From Acidihalobacter aeolianus (GTDB taxonomy: Bacteria > Pseudomonadota > Gammaproteobacteria > DSM-5130 > Acidihalobacteraceae), in contig NZ_CP017448.1 of NCBI RefSeq assembly GCF_001753165.1, positions 124,001-188,000 of the forward strand: 64,000 nt of DNA, in the 5' to 3' direction. Under the pieces are notes generated by a model, which saw nothing but the letters and a program-made list of their open reading frames with translations, had not been told where the DNA came from and searched no databases. Below are positions 33,874 through 41,332 of the stretch, piece by piece. Both the position numbers and the translations under genes were made by a program. The first letter of the stretch is position 1; the number at the start of each line of letters is the position of its first letter.

Positions 33874-34331
33874 GCGCCCGCCAGGGCGAGGTGGTAGACG
33901 TAGAACTGCGTGTCGCGCTGCCAGCCGAGGGACGCGTAAAGCGTCTGCGCCGCCGTGTTGTCCAGCGCTGTCGAAAGGGTCAGGCGCGCTGCGCCCAGCC
34001 TGCGCGCATAGGCCTCGGCGGCCCTGAGCAGACCGGAGGCCACGCCGCGTCGACGGCGATCCGGTGCGACGAAGAGGTCGTTGAGCAGGAAGGTGCGCGC
34101 CAGCCCGACGGATGAAAACCCCGGATAGATCTGAGCGAAGCCCGCAGGCTCGCCGTCGACCTCGGCCAGGAAGACGGTCGATTCGCCATGCTCGAAACGC
34201 GCCAGCAGAAAGGCGCGTGCCGCTTCGAGGTCGCCCGGGCGGCCGTAGAACTGCCGGTAGGCGTCGAACAGCGGAGCGAGGGCGTCGAGGTTCTCAAGGG
34301 TGGCCTGTCTGAGCCGGGTCGTGCCTGCCAT
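33870..34331 (-). CDS. GNAT acetyltransferase
   Basis: This 153-residue N-acetyltransferase has RLRQATLENLDALAPLFDAYRQFYGRPGD (N-terminal part), FLLNDLFVAPDRRRRGVASGLLRAAEAYAR (acetyl-CoA loop with R/Q-x-x-G-x-G/A variant RRRGVA) and LYASLGWQRDTQFYVYHLAL (C-terminal block). The ATG at 34331 follows GGGAGA; the frame is open further upstream into the AT-rich promoter of the neighbouring operon but is not protein-like there. Its stop overlaps the dehydrogenase stop, tail to tail. The substrate is unknown. Confidence 0.88.
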   Translation of the reverse strand: MAGTTRLRQATLENLDALAPLFDAYRQFYGRPGDLEAARAFLLARFEHGESTVFLAEVDGEPAGFAQIYPGFSSVGLARTFLLNDLFVAPDRRRRGVASGLLRAAEAYARRLGAARLTLSTALDNTAAQTLYASLGWQRDTQFYVYHLALAGA

Positions 34332-34406
34332 GCCTGATTCTCCCACCTGCGCTTGCCTGAAACCCATCATACCCGGGCCCCGTCCGGCTTGTCGGCCTTG
34401 GTGGAT

Positions 34407-34426
34407 TTTGTCGCGTTTGCGACAAA
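34407..34426 (+). promoter_or_regulatory. NifA-type upstream activator site (TGT-N10-ACA)
   Basis: TTTGTCGC-GTTT-GCGACAAA is a perfect inverted repeat with 8-bp arms, containing TGT-N10-ACA (34409-34424), the NifA enhancer consensus. Its centre lies about 100 bp upstream of the transcription start expected from the -24/-12 promoter at 34492, the normal distance for NifA. An AT-rich bendable stretch (34440-34490) lies between. Confidence 0.7.
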
Positions 34427-34491
34427 GGTCTGGGCGGGGTTTATAAGATAAATAAATAATAAAAACAATAACCTGTAATTTTTTTGCAGGC

Positions 34492-34507
34492 TGGTACGAA
34501 GGTTGCT
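34492..34507 (+). promoter_or_regulatory. Sigma-54 (-24/-12) promoter of the rhodanese-nif11 operon
   Basis: TGGTACGAAGGTTGCT matches the consensus TGGCACG-N4-TTGCW at all positions but one (T for C), with GG and GC at the required spacing. The start would be near 34518, 28 bp before the rhodanese ATG. Together with the TGT-N10-ACA site this predicts NifA/RpoN control. Confidence 0.75.
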
Positions 34508-34545
34508 CTGAGCCCTCTGTGAACACTTAAAGCGAGGACTCACGC

Positions 34546-34884
34546 ATGAGCTACCATGACATCGATGCGGCAGAGGTACACGATCTGCTGCGCAGGGACG
34601 ATCTCGTCGTGATCGACGTGCGCGACGTCCACGCCCAGAGCCGCGGTCAGCTGCCCAACGCCATGCCGCCCAGCGACGAGGTCATCAACGCGCTGATCCG
34701 ACGCCGGCATCAGCCCCTCGCGGTGCTGGTCTACTGCTACCACGGCCACAGCAGCCGCGACCTTTGTTCTTTCCTCACTCGCATCGGACTGCAGCAGGTC
34801 TACAACCTCACCGGCGGTTGGGCCGCCTGGGAGCGGCATCAGTCCATCTACGCCACAGAACCCGCCGAGGCACTGCCGGCGTAA
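34546..34884 (+). CDS. Rhodanese-domain sulfurtransferase (GlpE-like)
   Basis: This 112-residue single-domain rhodanese has the active-site loop VYCYHGHSSRDL near residues 63-74, with the persulfide Cys at the expected place. DLVVIDVRDVHAQSRGQLPNAMP is the N-terminal hallmark, with IGLQQVYNLTGGWAAWER at the end. The family moves sulfane sulfur between donors and acceptors. As the first gene of an operon with glutaredoxin, BolA, NafY and Nif11 behind a sigma-54 promoter, it probably supplies sulfur for Fe-S or nitrogenase cofactor assembly; that role is inference. Confidence 0.92.
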   Translation: MSYHDIDAAEVHDLLRRDDLVVIDVRDVHAQSRGQLPNAMPPSDEVINALIRRRHQPLAVLVYCYHGHSSRDLCSFLTRIGLQQVYNLTGGWAAWERHQSIYATEPAEALPA

Positions 34885-34933
34885 TCAGAACGCCGAGCGA
34901 CCGCTCAATACCACCCTTGCCGAGACATCGCCC

Positions 34934-35248
34934 ATGAAAACGACCGACGTGATTCGCCAGCAGCTTCAGGAACACCCCGTAATCCTCTACATGAAGGGCA
35001 CGCCCGAGGCGCCGCGCTGCGGTTTTTCCGCCAAGGCGGCCGCCGTGATGCAGTCCACCGGGGTCGATTTCGCCTACGTCGACGTGCTGTCCTCGCCGCT
35101 GATCATGCAGGCTCTGCCCGAGGTTTCGGATTTCCCGACCTTCCCGCAGCTCTTCATCAAGGGCGAGATCATCGGCGGCAGCGACATCATGGAGGCGATG
35201 CTGGCCAGCGGCGAGCTCGTGCCCATGCTGAACGAAGCCGCTTCCTGA
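34934..35248 (+). CDS. grxD: Monothiol glutaredoxin (CGFS type)
   Basis: This 104-residue Grx4/GrxD-type protein has active-site CGFS in APRCGFSAKA near residue 30. VILYMKGTPEAP is the N-terminal block, then SDFPTFPQLFIKGEIIGGSDI and MLASGELVPML. CGFS glutaredoxins bind a glutathione-ligated 2Fe-2S cluster as homodimers or as heterodimers with BolA proteins. A bolA-family gene starts 9 bp downstream, matching that partnership. Within this operon it may be a nitrogen-fixation-specific copy; whether the genome has another grxD is unknown. Confidence 0.95.
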   Translation: MKTTDVIRQQLQEHPVILYMKGTPEAPRCGFSAKAAAVMQSTGVDFAYVDVLSSPLIMQALPEVSDFPTFPQLFIKGEIIGGSDIMEAMLASGELVPMLNEAAS

Positions 35249-35257
35249 GGCCCGGCC

Positions 35258-35524
35258 ATGCTGCATAGCGAGATCGTCGAGCGCGTGCGCGCGCTCTACC
35301 CGGACGCCGCGATCGAGGTCGCGGGCGAGGATTGCAGCTTCGAGATGCTGGTCGTCAGCGAGGCCTTTGCCGGCACCCGCCTGCTCGCGCGGCAGAAGTC
35401 GATCCTGGCCCTGTTCAAGGACGACATCCAGTCCGGCGCCCTGCATGCCCTGTCGGTGACGGCGCGCACGCCGGCCGAGCAGTCCGCCGCATCCGGCGCC
35501 GGTCTGGTCCGGCTCACTTCCTGA
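35258..35524 (+). CDS. BolA-family protein
   Basis: This 88-residue protein of the BolA/IbaG fold has ALYPDAAIEVAGEDCSFEMLVVSEAFAGTRLLARQKSILALFKDDIQSGALHALSVTARTPAEQ spread over its length. The FKDDI-SG-LHALSV block with the conserved His near residue 67 is diagnostic. BolA proteins pair with CGFS glutaredoxins to hold and pass Fe-S clusters. It is tightly spaced with the glutaredoxin upstream (9 bp) and nafY downstream (10 bp). It resembles the shorter IbaG type more than BolA proper. Confidence 0.92.
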   Translation: MLHSEIVERVRALYPDAAIEVAGEDCSFEMLVVSEAFAGTRLLARQKSILALFKDDIQSGALHALSVTARTPAEQSAASGAGLVRLTS

Positions 35525-35534
35525 GGAATTAGCG

Positions 35535-36284
35535 ATGAGCGTTGCCAATATCGACCGCGAAACCGCGCTGCGCATTGCGCTGGCGGCGCGCAGTCTGCCG
35601 GATACCGACCTGTCCACGCTGATCGACGTGCTCAACGAGCGTCTGGGTACGCCGCTCGATCTGGAGAAGCTTTCGCGCATCACCGTCACCGACCTCAAGG
35701 CCGGCATCGGCAGTCTGGACGGCGAAGAGGACAGCGAAAACACCGGCGGCATGGACCGCAGCGGTCTGGAGCCGATCAAGCTCGCCGTACGCATCCTATG
35801 GGGCGAGACCAGCGAGGACGACAACCTGCCGAAGCCGGTGCCCTATGCCGACGGCGACATGCCGGGCTCGATCCGCGTGGCCATCGCCTCCAACAGCGGC
35901 GCCAACCTGGACGGGCATTTCTGTTCCTGCCTGCGCTTCCTGGTCTATCAGCTGTCGAGCGACGAGATGCGCCTGATCGACATCCGCCCCACGCTGGAGG
36001 CCGATTACTCGGACGACAAGAACCTGTTCCGCGTCAACCTGATCCGCGACTGCCAGGTGCTCTACATCGTGTCCGTCGGCGGGCCCGCGGCGGCGAAGAT
36101 CGTGCGCGCGGACATCCATCCCATGAAGAAGATCGAGGGCGGTCTGGCCGAGGACGTGCTCGCCGATCTGCAGCAGGTGATCAAGAACTCACCGCCGCCC
36201 TGGCTCGCCAAGATACTCGGCATTTCGCGCGAAAAGCGGTTCCGTTACTACACGGGCGCCGAGGAAGCCGAAGCTCAGGACTGA
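35535..36284 (+). CDS. nafY: NafY-like dinitrogenase iron-molybdenum cofactor binding protein
   Basis: This 249-residue protein has two domains. The N-terminal helical domain (about 5-75, DRETALRIALAARSLPDTDLSTLIDVLNERLG) resembles the NafY core-binding domain. The C-terminal NifX/NifB-like domain (about 110-225) contains IRVAIASNSGANLDGHFCSCLRFLVYQLS and VNLIRDCQVLYIVSVGGPAAAKIVRADIHPMK. NafY binds apo-dinitrogenase and FeMo-co during nitrogenase maturation. Its presence implies a nif system elsewhere in the genome. The His in DGHFCSC is placed where NafY/NifX proteins bind the cofactor. Gene name is given for family; exact orthology is not proven. Confidence 0.88.
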   Translation: MSVANIDRETALRIALAARSLPDTDLSTLIDVLNERLGTPLDLEKLSRITVTDLKAGIGSLDGEEDSENTGGMDRSGLEPIKLAVRILWGETSEDDNLPKPVPYADGDMPGSIRVAIASNSGANLDGHFCSCLRFLVYQLSSDEMRLIDIRPTLEADYSDDKNLFRVNLIRDCQVLYIVSVGGPAAAKIVRADIHPMKKIEGGLAEDVLADLQQVIKNSPPPWLAKILGISREKRFRYYTGAEEAEAQD

Positions 36285-36320
36285 TTATAAAGATCCATCC
36301 ACACCCGCAAGAGGAAAACC

Positions 36321-36539
36321 ATGTCGATTCAGGCTATCGCCGCCTTTTCCGCCAAGGCCCGTACGGACGCCGATCTCGGTGCCCAGCTCAAGGCCTGCCA
36401 GAAGCTCAAGGAGATGTTCGCGCTCGCCCGCGAGCACGGTTTCGAGTTCGACGAGGACACGCTGTATCCGCCGAACGAGCCGCAGTTCACGGCCGATCAG
36501 CTCTCCGAGCGTCTGGCCAAGGCCCTGCTGCGCGCCTGA
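36321..36539 (+). CDS. Nif11-domain protein
   Basis: This 72-residue protein has the Nif11 domain: MSIQAIAAFSAKARTDADLGAQLKAC followed by EMFALAREHGFEFDEDTLY. Nif11 proteins are small proteins of unknown function found in nitrogen-fixation clusters. A related group serves as leaders of ribosomal natural products, but no GG motif or core peptide follows here, so the nif type fits. The ribosome-binding site is AAGAGGAAA. It closes the operon and a hairpin follows at 36551. Confidence 0.9.
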   Translation: MSIQAIAAFSAKARTDADLGAQLKACQKLKEMFALAREHGFEFDEDTLYPPNEPQFTADQLSERLAKALLRA

Positions 36540-36550
36540 GGCGCGGGCCC

Positions 36551-36577
36551 GCGCTGCGGCAGTCTCCGCCGCAGCGC
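36551..36577. terminator. Hairpin between nif11 and hemH (convergent)
   Basis: A perfect 10-bp stem (GCGCTGCGGC at 36551-36560, GCCGCAGCGC at 36568-36577) with a 7-nt loop sits between the convergent nif11-type gene and hemH. There is no T-run on either strand. It is a likely shared termination or blocking hairpin. Confidence 0.5.
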
Positions 36578-36591
36578 CCATCCGATGTCTG

Positions 36592-37701
36592 TCAGCTTTC
36601 TGCGCCCAGCGCCAGCGCGCGTTGGCGCGCAGCTTCCTCGTGCGCCGAAACCTGCTGCCCGTTCCAGTCCGGATCGGTCTCCGGCCAGCCGGCCGCATGG
36701 CGCAGCGCCAGGGCGGTCAGCGCATCCAGGTGTTCCGGCTGCTCGTTGAGCGCGGGTATGTAGGCATAGTGCTGCCCGCCCGCGGCGACGAACAGCTCGC
36801 GGTTCTGCATCGCGATCTCCTCCAGCGTCTCCAGACAGTCCGCGGCGAAACCGGGGCAGAACACGTCCACGCTGCGCCGTCCCTCGCCGGGCCAGCCCTT
36901 GAGCAGGCCGTCGACATAGGGTTTGAGCCATTCCTCGCGGCCGAAGCGCGACTGGAAGCCGAGCGTCCAGGCTTCGTCGTCGAGTTCCAGGGCCTCGGCG
37001 AGCAGGCGTGCGGTCATCTGGCAGTGGCAGTGATACGGGTCGCCGGCGATCAGGTAGCGTCTGGGCACGCCGTGAAAGGAAAACAGCAGGTGTTCGCCGC
37101 GCCCGTGCTCGGCCCAGTGTGCGCGGATGCGCGCGGCCATGGCGGCGATGTAGGCGGGGTCGTCGTGGTAGTGATTGACGAAGCGTAGCTCCGGCACCCA
37201 GCGCCAGCGGCGCAGTACCTCGGCGACGGCGTCGAAGGTCGAGCCGGTGGTCGAGCCCGAGTATTGCGGGTAGAGCGGCAGCACCAGCAGGCGCTCGGCG
37301 CCGGCCTCGCGCAGCTCGCGCAGCCCGGCCTCGATCGACGGCGTGCCGTAGCGCATCGCCAGGGCGACCGTCACCGGTCCCGTGCAGGTGGCCGCGAGCC
37401 GCTGTTGCAAGCCGGCGGCCTGGGCGCGGCTATGCACCAGCAGGGGCGAGCCCTCGGCGGTCCACACCTTGGCGTAGGCGTGCGCCGAGCGCTTGGGACG
37501 GATGTTGAGGATCACCCCGTTGAGGATCAGCCACCAGGGCAGGCGCGGGAATTCAACTACGCGCGGGTCCCACAGGAATTCGCGCAGGTAACGGCGCAGG
37601 GCGGGCGGCGTCGGCGCGTCGGGCGTGCCGAGATTGGTCAGCAGTACCCCGAGGCGGGCCGGGCGGCCGTGTTCGTAATGGCTTTCGCTTTCGTAACGCA
37701 T
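36592..37701 (-). CDS. hemH: Ferrochelatase
   Basis: This enzyme inserts Fe2+ into protoporphyrin IX, the last step of haem synthesis. It has 369 residues. The N-terminal GVLLTNLGTPDAPTPPALRRYLREFL, the LFSFHGVPRRYLIAGDPYHCHCQMTARLLAE block with the metal-binding His near residue 206, TLGFQSRFGREEWLKPYVDGLL and VDVFCPGFAADCLETLEEI are all classic. The ATG at 37701 fits the family start; the longer frame adds 19 residues. It is downstream of the HNH gene on the same strand, with a 75-bp gap. Confidence 0.96.
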   Translation of the reverse strand: MRYESESHYEHGRPARLGVLLTNLGTPDAPTPPALRRYLREFLWDPRVVEFPRLPWWLILNGVILNIRPKRSAHAYAKVWTAEGSPLLVHSRAQAAGLQQRLAATCTGPVTVALAMRYGTPSIEAGLRELREAGAERLLVLPLYPQYSGSTTGSTFDAVAEVLRRWRWVPELRFVNHYHDDPAYIAAMAARIRAHWAEHGRGEHLLFSFHGVPRRYLIAGDPYHCHCQMTARLLAEALELDDEAWTLGFQSRFGREEWLKPYVDGLLKGWPGEGRRSVDVFCPGFAADCLETLEEIAMQNRELFVAAGGQHYAYIPALNEQPEHLDALTALALRHAAGWPETDPDWNGQQVSAHEEAARQRALALGAES

Positions 37702-38517: not shown

Positions 38518-39657
38518 ATGCCGATCAAGCTGGCCGTACCCAGGGAAAGCGCCGCCGGAGAGCGCCGCGTGGCGCTCGATCCGGCCACCGCTAAGCGCCT
38601 GTGCGAACTCGGCGCCGAGGTGTTGGTGCAGCGCGCCGCCGGCGCCCGCGCGCATTTCACCGATGCGGCCTACCGCGAGGCCGGTGCGCGGATCGTCCCG
38701 TCCGCAGCCGCGCTGCTCAGGCAGGCCGACGCGCTGCTCAAGGTGCAGGCGCCGAGCGTCAAGGAGGCCGAAGGCCTGCGCGAGGGTGCGCTGGTAGTGG
38801 CCACGGTGATGGCGCAGCGCAACGTCGAGGCGGTGGCGCGGATGCGCGACCGCGGCATCACCTGTTTCGCGATGGAACTGATTCCGCGCATCTCGCGCGC
38901 GCAGTCGATGGACGTGCTGTCCTCGCAGGCGGCCGTGGCCGGCTACAAGGCCGCGATCATGGGCGCCGATCTCTCCTGCCGTTTCTTCCCCATGCTGACC
39001 ACCGCCGCAGGCACCATCCGTCCGGCGAGCGTGCTGGTGATCGGCGCCGGCGTGGCCGGCCTGCAGGCCATCGCCACCGCACGGCGGCTGGGCGCCGTGG
39101 TGCTGGGCTACGACGTGCGTTCGGCCACTCGCGAGCAGGTCGAGTCCCTCGGCGCCCGTTTCGTGCAGCTGTCGGTCACCGCCGAGGGCGAGGGCGGCTA
39201 CGCGCGCGAACTGACGGATGAGGAAAAGGCGCAGCAGGCGGACGAGCTGGCCGCGCACATCGCTCGTACGGACGTGCTCATCACCACCGCGGCGGTGCCG
39301 GGACTGCCCGCGCCGAAGATCGTCAGCCCGGCGATGGTCGAGGGCATGAAACCGGGCGCGGTGATCGTCGATCTGGCCGCCGACGGTGGCGGCAACTGTG
39401 CGCTGACCGAGCCCGGCAGGACGGTGACGTACGGCGCCGTCACCATCCACGGCCCGCTGAACGTGCCCAGCCAGGTGCCGCTGCGCGCCAGCGAGATGTA
39501 CGCGCGGAACCTGTTCAACTTCCTGCAGCCGATGCTGACCGGCGACGCGCTCAGGCCCGATTTCGAGGACGCGGTGATCGCCGGCAGCCTGCTCACGCGG
39601 GACGGGGCGATCGTGCACGAACCCAGCCGCGCGCTGGTGGAGGGAGCATCGCCATGA
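38518..39657 (+). CDS. pntAA: NAD(P) transhydrogenase subunit alpha part 1
   Basis: This is the NAD(H)-binding soluble domain I of the proton-translocating transhydrogenase, 379 residues. IKLAVPRESAAGERRVALDP is the N-terminal signature, then FAMELIPRISRAQSMDVLSSQAAVAGYKA, the GAGVAGLQAIATARRLGAVV Rossmann motif near residue 178, and VITTAAVPG-like ITTAAVPGLPAPKIV. In this split form the membrane part is on the next gene, as in Rhodospirillum. The stop overlaps pntAB by 4 bp. The enzyme makes NADPH from NADH using the proton gradient. Confidence 0.96.
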   Translation: MPIKLAVPRESAAGERRVALDPATAKRLCELGAEVLVQRAAGARAHFTDAAYREAGARIVPSAAALLRQADALLKVQAPSVKEAEGLREGALVVATVMAQRNVEAVARMRDRGITCFAMELIPRISRAQSMDVLSSQAAVAGYKAAIMGADLSCRFFPMLTTAAGTIRPASVLVIGAGVAGLQAIATARRLGAVVLGYDVRSATREQVESLGARFVQLSVTAEGEGGYARELTDEEKAQQADELAAHIARTDVLITTAAVPGLPAPKIVSPAMVEGMKPGAVIVDLAADGGGNCALTEPGRTVTYGAVTIHGPLNVPSQVPLRASEMYARNLFNFLQPMLTGDALRPDFEDAVIAGSLLTRDGAIVHEPSRALVEGASP

Positions 39658-39950
39658 TCGAGGGATTCGTCGCGCTGTATATCTTCATGCTGGCTGCAAT
39701 CGCCGGCTACGAGGTGATCTCCAAGGTCCCGGTGATCCTGCACACGCCGCTGATGTCGGGCTCGAATTTCGTCCACGGTATCGTCCTGGTCGGCGCCATG
39801 GTCGCCCTGGGGCAGGCGCAGACGGGTCTGGAGCAGCTCGTCGGCTTCGTCGGCGTGGTGCTGGCCGCAGGCAACGTGGTCGGGGGCTTCGTGGTCACCG
39901 AACGCATGCTCGACATGTTCAAGGCGAGCGGCCGCGGAGACCGGCGATGA
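39654..39950 (+). CDS. pntAB: NAD(P) transhydrogenase subunit alpha part 2
   Basis: This 98-residue membrane subunit has three hydrophobic helices (about 5-22, 37-54, 62-86). YIFMLAAIAGYEVISKVPVILHTPLMSGSNFVHGIVLVGAM is the conserved block; GGFVVTERMLDMF ends it. It forms part of the proton channel of the transhydrogenase with PntB. It overlaps both neighbours by 4 bp (ATGA), so the three subunits are translationally coupled. Confidence 0.96.
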   Translation: MIEGFVALYIFMLAAIAGYEVISKVPVILHTPLMSGSNFVHGIVLVGAMVALGQAQTGLEQLVGFVGVVLAAGNVVGGFVVTERMLDMFKASGRGDRR

Positions 39951-41332
39951 ACTTCGTGATCCAGGTTGCGTACTTCGCCGCGGCCCTCCTGTTCATTCTC
40001 GGCCTCAGGCAGATGAGCTCGCCGGCCACCGCGCGGCGCGGCATCCTGTGGGCCGGCGTCGGCATGCTGGCGGCGGTGCTGGTCACCTTCTTCGCGCCGG
40101 ACGTCCGCGGGGTGGGCAATTACCTGCTGATGTTCCTCGGCATCGGCCTCGGCGGCGGGCTGGCCTGGTGGTTCGGCCGGCGGGTGGCGATGACCGACAT
40201 GCCGCAGATGATCGCGCTGTACAACGGCATGGGCGGCGGCGCCGCAGCCGCGATCGCGGCGGTCGAGCTGGTGCGCGGCGCGCCGATGTCGTCAGCCACC
40301 CAGGTGCTGGCGGCCGTGGGCGCGCTGATCGGCGCGGTGGCCTTTGCCGGTTCGCTGGTCGCCTTCGCCAAGCTGCAGCGCCTGCTGAAGAGCTCGCTCC
40401 GCTTCCCCCGCCAGCGCGAGACCAATCTCGCCGTGCTGGCCTTTGCCGCGTTGCTCGGCCTGCTCGTCGCCTTTACCTCGGGCGGACATTCCGGCGGCAT
40501 GCTGTTCCTGTTCTTAGCCGCGGCTTTCGTCTTCGGCGTGCTGATGGCATTGCCGATCGGTGGGGCCGACATGCCGGTAGTGATCTCGCTGTTCAATGCG
40601 CTGACCGGTCTTGCCGTGGGCCTTGAAGGGTTCGTGCTGGGCAACCCCGCGATGATGATCGCGGGCATCGTGGTCGGCGCGGCCGGCACGCTCCTGACCC
40701 AGCTGATGGCCAAGGCGATGAACCGTCCGCTGGGCAACGTGCTGTTTGCCCAGTTCGGCGGCGACGACGCCACTGTCGCCGCGGAAGGCGGTCCGGGTGG
40801 GCACCTCAAGCCGATCGAGGGTAGCGATGCCGGCGTCCTGCTGGCGTATGCGAACAAGCTGATCGTGGTCCCGGGCTACGGCATGGCCGTGGCCCAGGCC
40901 CAGCACAAGCTATGGGAGCTGTGCGAACTGCTGATCGAGCGCGGGGTGACGGTCAAGTTCGCAATCCATCCGGTAGCCGGGCGCATGCCGGGACACATGA
41001 ACGTGCTGCTCGCCGAGGCGGGGGTGCCCTATGACCTGATCCATGATCTGGACGAGATCAACGGCGAGTTCGCGACCGCGGACGCCGCCCTCGTGATCGG
41101 CGCGAACGACGTGGTCAACCCAGCCGCGCGCAGCAATCCGGACAGCCCGATCTACGGCATGCCGATCCTCAATGTGGACAAGGCGAAGCACGTCATCGTG
41201 ATCAAGCGCGGTCAGGGCACCGGCTTTTCGGGGGTGGAGAATGCCCTCTTCGCCGCGGACAATACACGCATGTTTTACGGCGACGGGCAGAAGGCGATGG
41301 CCGAGCTCATCCAGTCCGTCAAAATGCTGTAA
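39947..41332 (+). CDS. pntB: NAD(P) transhydrogenase subunit beta
   Basis: This 461-residue subunit has about eight membrane helices in the first 265 residues, followed by the NADP(H)-binding domain III. VVPGYGMAVAQAQHKLWELCELLIERGVTVKFAIHPVAGRMPGHMNVLLAEAGV is the NADP-site block, and NADVVNPAA-like GANDVVNPAARSNPDSPIYGMPILNVDKAKHVIVIKRG follows; both are diagnostic. It completes the pntAA-pntAB-pntB operon. No terminator hairpin with a T-run was seen in the 390-bp AT-rich region downstream. Confidence 0.97.
   Translation: MNFVIQVAYFAAALLFILGLRQMSSPATARRGILWAGVGMLAAVLVTFFAPDVRGVGNYLLMFLGIGLGGGLAWWFGRRVAMTDMPQMIALYNGMGGGAAAAIAAVELVRGAPMSSATQVLAAVGALIGAVAFAGSLVAFAKLQRLLKSSLRFPRQRETNLAVLAFAALLGLLVAFTSGGHSGGMLFLFLAAAFVFGVLMALPIGGADMPVVISLFNALTGLAVGLEGFVLGNPAMMIAGIVVGAAGTLLTQLMAKAMNRPLGNVLFAQFGGDDATVAAEGGPGGHLKPIEGSDAGVLLAYANKLIVVPGYGMAVAQAQHKLWELCELLIERGVTVKFAIHPVAGRMPGHMNVLLAEAGVPYDLIHDLDEINGEFATADAALVIGANDVVNPAARSNPDSPIYGMPILNVDKAKHVIVIKRGQGTGFSGVENALFAADNTRMFYGDGQKAMAELIQSVKML

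Follow-up and report, generated by a model that had tools for sequence, protein, structure and literature searches.

Five adjacent genes of the acidophilic, metal-oxidising bacterium Acidihalobacter aeolianus, together with the promoter region in front of them, probably form a nitrogen-fixation operon run by NifA and sigma-54, in which a monothiol glutaredoxin (Grx) and a BolA-family protein would supply [2Fe-2S] clusters to nitrogenase assembly, while a NafY-type protein would hold cofactor or apo-NifDK. The operon lies within a 64-kb stretch (hereafter, the window) that comprises bases 124001-188000 of contig 1 of the two-contig genome of 3,526,118 bases; unless another contig or locus is named, coordinates are those of the window. 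Two lines of evidence, the promoter anatomy and a gene order recurring in nif-bearing genomes, give good support to the predicted NifA/sigma-54 control and to a connection with nitrogen fixation. The promoter elements and genes are the following:

34409..34424, plus strand: NifA-type upstream activator sequence TGTCGCGTTTGCGACA, TGTCGC-N4-GCGACA with perfect arms (pattern scan)
34492..34507, plus strand: sigma-54 (-24/-12) promoter TGGTACGAAGGTTGCT, GG-N10-GC (score 21/21)
34546..34884, plus strand: single-domain rhodanese, active-site-like CYHGHSS, no ankyrin part (Pfam PF00581, 47.8 bits; alignment)
34934..35248, plus strand: Grx4-type monothiol glutaredoxin, CGFS (NCBIfam TIGR00365, 126 bits, cut-off 117.1)
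35258..35524, plus strand: BolA-family protein, GEDC loop Cys and LHALS His (Pfam PF01722, 45 bits; alignment)
35535..36284, plus strand: NafY-type protein, DIMCO_N and Nitro_FeMo-Co domains, FeMo-co ligand His in GHFCSC (Pfam, 102.2 and 54.3 bits)
36321..36539, plus strand: small Nif11-domain protein, 72 aa (Pfam PF07862, 53.6 bits; TIGR03798, 42.4 bits)

All five open reading frames (ORFs) of the operon score above the Pfam curated cut-offs, which bears out the gene identities given in an earlier note on this DNA (rhodanese, glutaredoxin, BolA, NafY and Nif11). Since the intergenic gaps amount to only 49, 9, 10 and 36 bp, the arrangement is consistent with the five genes sharing one transcript. 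A simple consensus scan of the plus strand from 34300 to 36700 returned no sigma-70 promoter for the operon, and no structured RNA was detected at 34000-37000 at gathering thresholds.

The sigma-54 element obtains the full score on a consensus-based 21-point scale of our own, and the predicted start (~34518) leaves a leader of 28 bp to the first ATG at 34546, in agreement with the near-consensus -24/-12 promoter and the start 28 bp before the first gene that had been described earlier. NifA sites of the form TGT-N10-ACA are expected roughly 80-150 bp 5' of the start, a range that includes the palindrome, whose centre lies ~101 bp 5' of the predicted start. The distance of about 100 bp, which the earlier note had counted from the palindrome to the promoter, holds for the start site, whereas the palindrome and the sigma-54 element themselves are set 67 bp apart. 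Taken singly, both patterns occur at chance level in the window, where TGT-N10-ACA was found 5 times (6.07 expected) and the loose sigma-54 pattern, two mismatches being allowed, 11 times (13.3 expected); the palindrome alone was rejected as evidence on account of this frequency. Unlike either element alone, the combination of the two is beyond chance, because no sigma-54 site in the window other than 34492-34507 reaches 20/21 and the exact 16-mer palindrome occurs only twice in the whole genome, namely at the front of the operon and upstream of nifE.

The genome encodes nifH, nifD, nifK, nifB, nifU, nifS, nifA, nifE and nifN, all above NCBIfam cut-offs (for nifA, TIGR01817 with 666.6 bits, cut-off 528.85), and rpoN is present once (TIGR02395, 500.4 bits, cut-off 277.35), so that neither the nif genes nor the RpoN on which the earlier reading depended is lacking. 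A nifX-like gene falls just under the NCBIfam cut-off (98.7 versus 112), and nifT, nifV, iscA-nif and the ferredoxins were named by eye. The interval 919-925 kb contains nifHDKT and a second NafY-type gene, nifENX lie at 934-937 kb and nifA-nifB at 2.73 Mb, the operon being located ~760 kb from nifHDK. Sites resembling those of the operon also precede nifH, nifE, iscA-nif/nifUS, nifV, nifB and a flavodoxin gene, as well as a ferredoxin gene (score 18 only). Scanning the genome for a TTGC-type sigma-54 site with a palindrome 60-90 bp upstream returned 20 places, compared to 6 in the reversed control. Scores of at least 20 were obtained at the operon, the flavodoxin gene, a second site beyond the flavodoxin gene, both sides of the iscA-nif/nifUS start and nifV; of the two places with a score of 19, one precedes nifB, and no nif gene was recognised at the other (C1:427 kb). 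The palindromes of nifH and nifE are 100 and 147 bp away and lie beyond the scanned gap. As a separate observation, two sigma-54/palindrome pairs stand less than 1 kb apart at C1:1454137-1455125 (L032, L033), the first of them preceding the flavodoxin gene (nifF-like).

The gene order was compared across 369 genomes of the class, plus a named collection. Among the 369, the NafY query gave matches in 34 genomes (E 0.001; NifX- and NifB-type matches included), nifD in 32 (E 1e-60) and a profile of the nif-type BolA in 115 (E 1e-15), the 30 best loci of these 115 genomes being inspected. The six best BolA-profile matches are all located behind a rhodanese and a Grx gene (G000, G001, G049, G160, G187 and G244), and, G244 excepted, NafY is next (5 of 6) and nifD is present in the genome. 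Two more genomes with the order rhodanese-Grx-BolA-NafY, the gammaproteobacterial metagenome-assembled genomes (MAGs) BWSM_30 (L097) and bin10089 (L098), were found in the named collection, and BWSM_30 carries nifD at 88% identity. Counting L099 and L100 once, as contigs of G187 and G049, rhodanese-Grx-BolA is thus encountered in eight genomes, of which all bear nif genes, six bear nifD and seven have NafY next; most of the operon thus recurs in other nitrogen fixers, where the earlier note had proposed to look for it. A sigma-54/palindrome pair lies directly before the rhodanese gene in seven of the eight. By Fisher test, the operon is associated with nifD (5 of 32 nifD-positive versus 1 of 337 other genomes, p 2e-5, with G244 counted as negative).

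In the congener G001, the five genes are alike, follow an identical palindrome and sigma-54 site and stand directly upstream of nifH (nif11 ends at 312585 and nifH is called from 312941, leaving ~355 bp between them); the identical 16-mer fronts both the operon and nifE in this genome as well. The congener G002 (99% complete) gave no NafY-type match and no nifD match. Nif11 is found behind NafY only in G000 and G001 among the eight operon genomes. In addition, a nitroreductase-family protein (PF00881) is encoded just before the rhodanese in G160 (L082:5819-7492, 557 aa) and in G244 (L216:7286-8740, 484 aa).

Nine rows were aligned for the nif-type Grx and BolA, i.e. those of the eight operon genomes and the Grx-BolA pair of G166. 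CGFS of the Grx is present in 9/9 rows, and so are the BolA Cys in a GEDC-type loop (9/9) and the His of the LHALS motif (9/9). The genome under study encodes three BolA-family proteins and two Grx4-type proteins above the cut-off, with a third Grx4-type match below it. Both other BolAs of this genome keep the His and are devoid of the loop Cys, which human BOLA2 carries. Between the window Grx and its CGFS counterpart elsewhere in the genome, identity is 52%, and the window BolA is 39% identical to the only other BolA found with it. Judged by their sequences, the window Grx and BolA are paralogs separate from the other copies of the genome.

These features suggest a model in which, going by the promoter anatomy, NifA would bind the palindrome and, with sigma-54, start transcription ~28 bp before the rhodanese gene. 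The CGFS Grx and the Cys/His BolA would form a [2Fe-2S]-bridged pair, as a paralog of the housekeeping pair dedicated to nif, and may donate their cluster to nitrogenase assembly, the likeliest acceptor being the permanent [2Fe-2S] site of NifU or IscA-nif. The NafY-type protein would, as its family suggests, escort FeMo-co or prop up apo-NifDK; the rhodanese probably handles sulfane sulfur for cluster supply, and Nif11 would be an accessory to the operon. In other systems, CGFS glutaredoxins and BolA proteins form bridged [2Fe-2S] pairs (PMC6205161; PMC13382767), and Azotobacter GrxD loads the permanent [2Fe-2S] site of NifU, for which the authors infer additional pathways (PMC13382767, 2026). 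A Grx that seems to be under NifA control and is accompanied by a BolA of its own, beside NafY in nif-bearing genomes, is a concrete, testable candidate for such an additional NifU-loading pathway. A more specific and only tentative version is that the Grx-BolA heterodimer is the missing additional donor to the permanent [2Fe-2S] site of NifU (or to IscA-nif), sparing housekeeping GrxD, and that the NafY clade couples this supply to cofactor insertion. The operon might represent a second supply route for nitrogenase metal clusters and, if true, would provide a compact helper set for nitrogenase engineering.

Part of this arrangement is already published, as a nif-linked rhodanese-Grx5 pair belongs to the minor nif cluster of Azotobacter vinelandii (rnf, nifLAB, fdxN, nifOQ, rhdN, grx5nif; PMC9866876), which resembles the window operon in its nif-linked rhodanese followed by a Grx5-type glutaredoxin. 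A likeness is also seen in G160, where nifA-nifB-fdxN and the rhodanese-Grx-BolA-NafY genes belong to one row. Compared by description and not by sequence, the passage on that cluster names no BolA or NafY in it (PMC9866876), and the window operon differs in lying apart from nifA-nifB, in having a rhodanese without ankyrin repeats and in ending in Nif11. The GrxD-to-NifU transfer of A. vinelandii is similar in that a CGFS glutaredoxin serves nitrogenase assembly; GrxD, however, obtains its cluster from housekeeping IscU and is not reported there as belonging to a nif cluster (PMC13382767), whereas the window protein is a second Grx, apparently NifA-controlled and paired with its own BolA. The human GLRX3-BOLA2 [2Fe-2S] chaperone likewise combines a CGFS Grx with a Cys-plus-His BolA (complex: PMC6205161), whereas the window pair is bacterial, nif-linked and built with a single-domain Grx. 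No description of BolA and NafY linked in such an operon was found in the full-text literature searched, which is no proof of absence, most subscription papers being outside it.

The association of the rhodanese with NafY extends beyond these operons. An alignment query for NafY gave 317 matches in the named collection, and the comparison covers the 80 best loci, among which at least one MAG appears twice; a single-protein search of the genome contigs with NafY found no relatives. In 66 of the 80 loci, the 1.7 kb upstream of nafY include a rhodanese gene of the same strand, 4 of these 66 also having Grx and BolA; the remaining 14 loci are without rhodanese, and in 4 of these 14 the available upstream sequence was shorter than 1.7 kb. 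According to the record titles, the hosts are methanotrophs (Methyl-) in 54 of the 80 cases and Marinobacterium in 5. The widest association is accordingly that of rhodanese with a NafY clade, Grx-BolA being found in one part of this clade. The first gene has a sigma-54/palindrome pair immediately ahead of it in 12/80 loci, compared to 38/620 control gene starts, and the distribution of such pairs depends on the locus class (Grx and BolA, 4/4; rhodanese alone, 1/62; neither, 7/14). The difference between 4/4 and 1/62 means that the promoter argument is valid for Grx-BolA operons and not for rhodanese-NafY ones.

The rhodaneses themselves differ in architecture. The longer ones of G160, G187 and G244 carry ankyrin repeats behind the rhodanese domain (Pfam), a separate ankyrin ORF is located between rhodanese and nafY in Methylobacter tundripaludum (L127) and Marinobacterium litorale (L103) (Pfam), and an ankyrin-like ORF was recognised by eye in L111. 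The window and G001 rhodaneses are without the ankyrin part in the alignment, and the window rhodanese keeps the active-site Cys in CYHG.

Several observations weigh against the nitrogen-fixation model. In 62 of the 80 NafY loci, rhodanese is present with neither Grx nor BolA alongside; therefore, NafY needs neither in cis. One of the eight operon rhodaneses, that of G160 (L082:7545-8291), is without the catalytic Cys and is possibly a binding module only; this speaks against sulfur transfer being essential and makes the rhodanese step the weakest in the proposal. In the same genome, the search met no sigma-54/palindrome pair immediately ahead of the rhodanese gene, the nearest one found being before nifB, upstream in the same gene row (nifA-nifB-fdxN, two further genes, then rhodanese-Grx-BolA-NafY). 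G244 gave no NafY match and no nifD match, an exception that may reflect a gap in the draft or a loss, because other nif genes are on its operon contig (relatives of iscA-nif, nifU, nifS, nifV, cysE, nifW, nifZ and nifM by tblastn); this contig has sigma-54/palindrome sites of its own. There was likewise no nifD match in bin10089, where a NifE, scoring above the NCBIfam cut-off, was all that the nifD query returned. Grx and BolA ORFs are also adjacent, with no rhodanese beside them, in G215 and G315, where no nifD was found, and in G166 and G140, which both bear nifD. Finally, in place of the His-Phe-Gly known from the literature, the window NafY-type protein reads HFC, with His and Phe kept; the six other operon NafY copies, including that of the congener, have HFG, and HFC reads as a strain-level change. 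Of the nif-specific Fe-S delivery module predicted in the earlier note, the NifA/sigma-54 control and the nif link stand on promoter and gene order, whereas delivery is what we infer and G215 and G315 argue against strict nif specificity.

Other functions have to be weighed for the same set of genes. Grx-BolA may instead sense iron or redox state and tune nitrogenase assembly or NifA/NifL, in the manner of yeast Grx3/4-Fra2, without donating clusters. BolA-Grx proteins have iron-sensing roles in yeast (PMC6205161), and in 3 of the 8 genomes (G049, G160 and G187) the gene of a NifA relative lies no more than 10 kb from the operon. However, the operon is far from nifA in the window strain, and its neighbours elsewhere also comprise assembly and structural genes, i.e. 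nifH (G001), nifB (G160) and nifU/nifS/iscA-nif (G244); we regard this regulatory role as unlikely. Improbable as well is a role in protection or repair, in which rhodanese, Grx and BolA would shield nitrogenase and its assembly proteins from oxygen, sulfide and cyanide, the co-regulation of NafY being a matter of timing only. Such a role would suit hosts that include an iron/sulfur oxidiser and methanotrophs, and rhodanese, present at 66/80 loci, is the most widely kept NafY neighbour; the operon, however, is without any other stress gene, and the invariant cluster-ligand residues of Grx and BolA fit cluster carriage better.

That housekeeping-type genes without any functional tie have come together by chance, with the promoter mainly serving nafY, agrees with the frequency of loci with rhodanese and nafY only (62/80), but appears very unlikely given that the gene order is repeated in eight genomes, that another CGFS Grx and two other BolAs are kept elsewhere in the same genome, and that the six best nif-type BolA-profile matches of the 369 genomes are all in operon order. 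It is hardly credible that Nif11 is the precursor of a ribosomally synthesized and post-translationally modified peptide (RiPP), so that the last gene would serve a peptide natural product and not nitrogen fixation: although the TIGR03798 leader model is passed (42.4 versus 32.3 bits), Nif11 contains no Gly-Gly motif and, in its C-terminal part, no Cys, and the gene sits behind nafY and, in the congener G001, right before nifH. The sequence of the operon protein is without Gly-Gly and has no Cys beyond residue 26, and the RiPP precursor assignment was rejected for want of a Gly-Gly motif or core, no search for modification enzymes having been made.

Within the nitrogen-fixation operon that we favour, the NafY-type protein matches 1p90 and 2kic (phmmer) and scores under the NCBIfam nifX cut-off (101.4 versus 112). 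It resembles A. vinelandii NafY (1p90, 2kic) in having both domains and the FeMo-co ligand His, and differs from it in HFC for HFG. A tree built from 26 chosen rows groups the NafYs linked to a rhodanese, along with two others, into one set of 13 (98/97) that is separate from the nifHDKT-linked NafYs; the Azotobacter core domain (1p90) is not part of this set, its placement being weak (80/86). The tree gives no support to the window NafY as a strict ortholog of Azotobacter NafY, an assignment that was rejected. Both NafY-type proteins of the strain deviate from His-Phe-Gly, with HFC at 35535-36284 and HFA at C1:923931-924617, the congener having HFG in both. The description of NafY and Nif11 as nitrogenase-linked holds for NafY, on its family domains and nif setting; for Nif11, which belongs to proteins described as without known function (PMC2887384), a nitrogenase role is putative only.

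The operon is flanked by a GNAT acetyltransferase gene and a ferrochelatase gene (Pfam), both on the opposite strand. Farther along the window, at 38518-41332 on the plus strand, are split NAD(P) transhydrogenase genes (Pfam AlaDh_PNT and PNTB).

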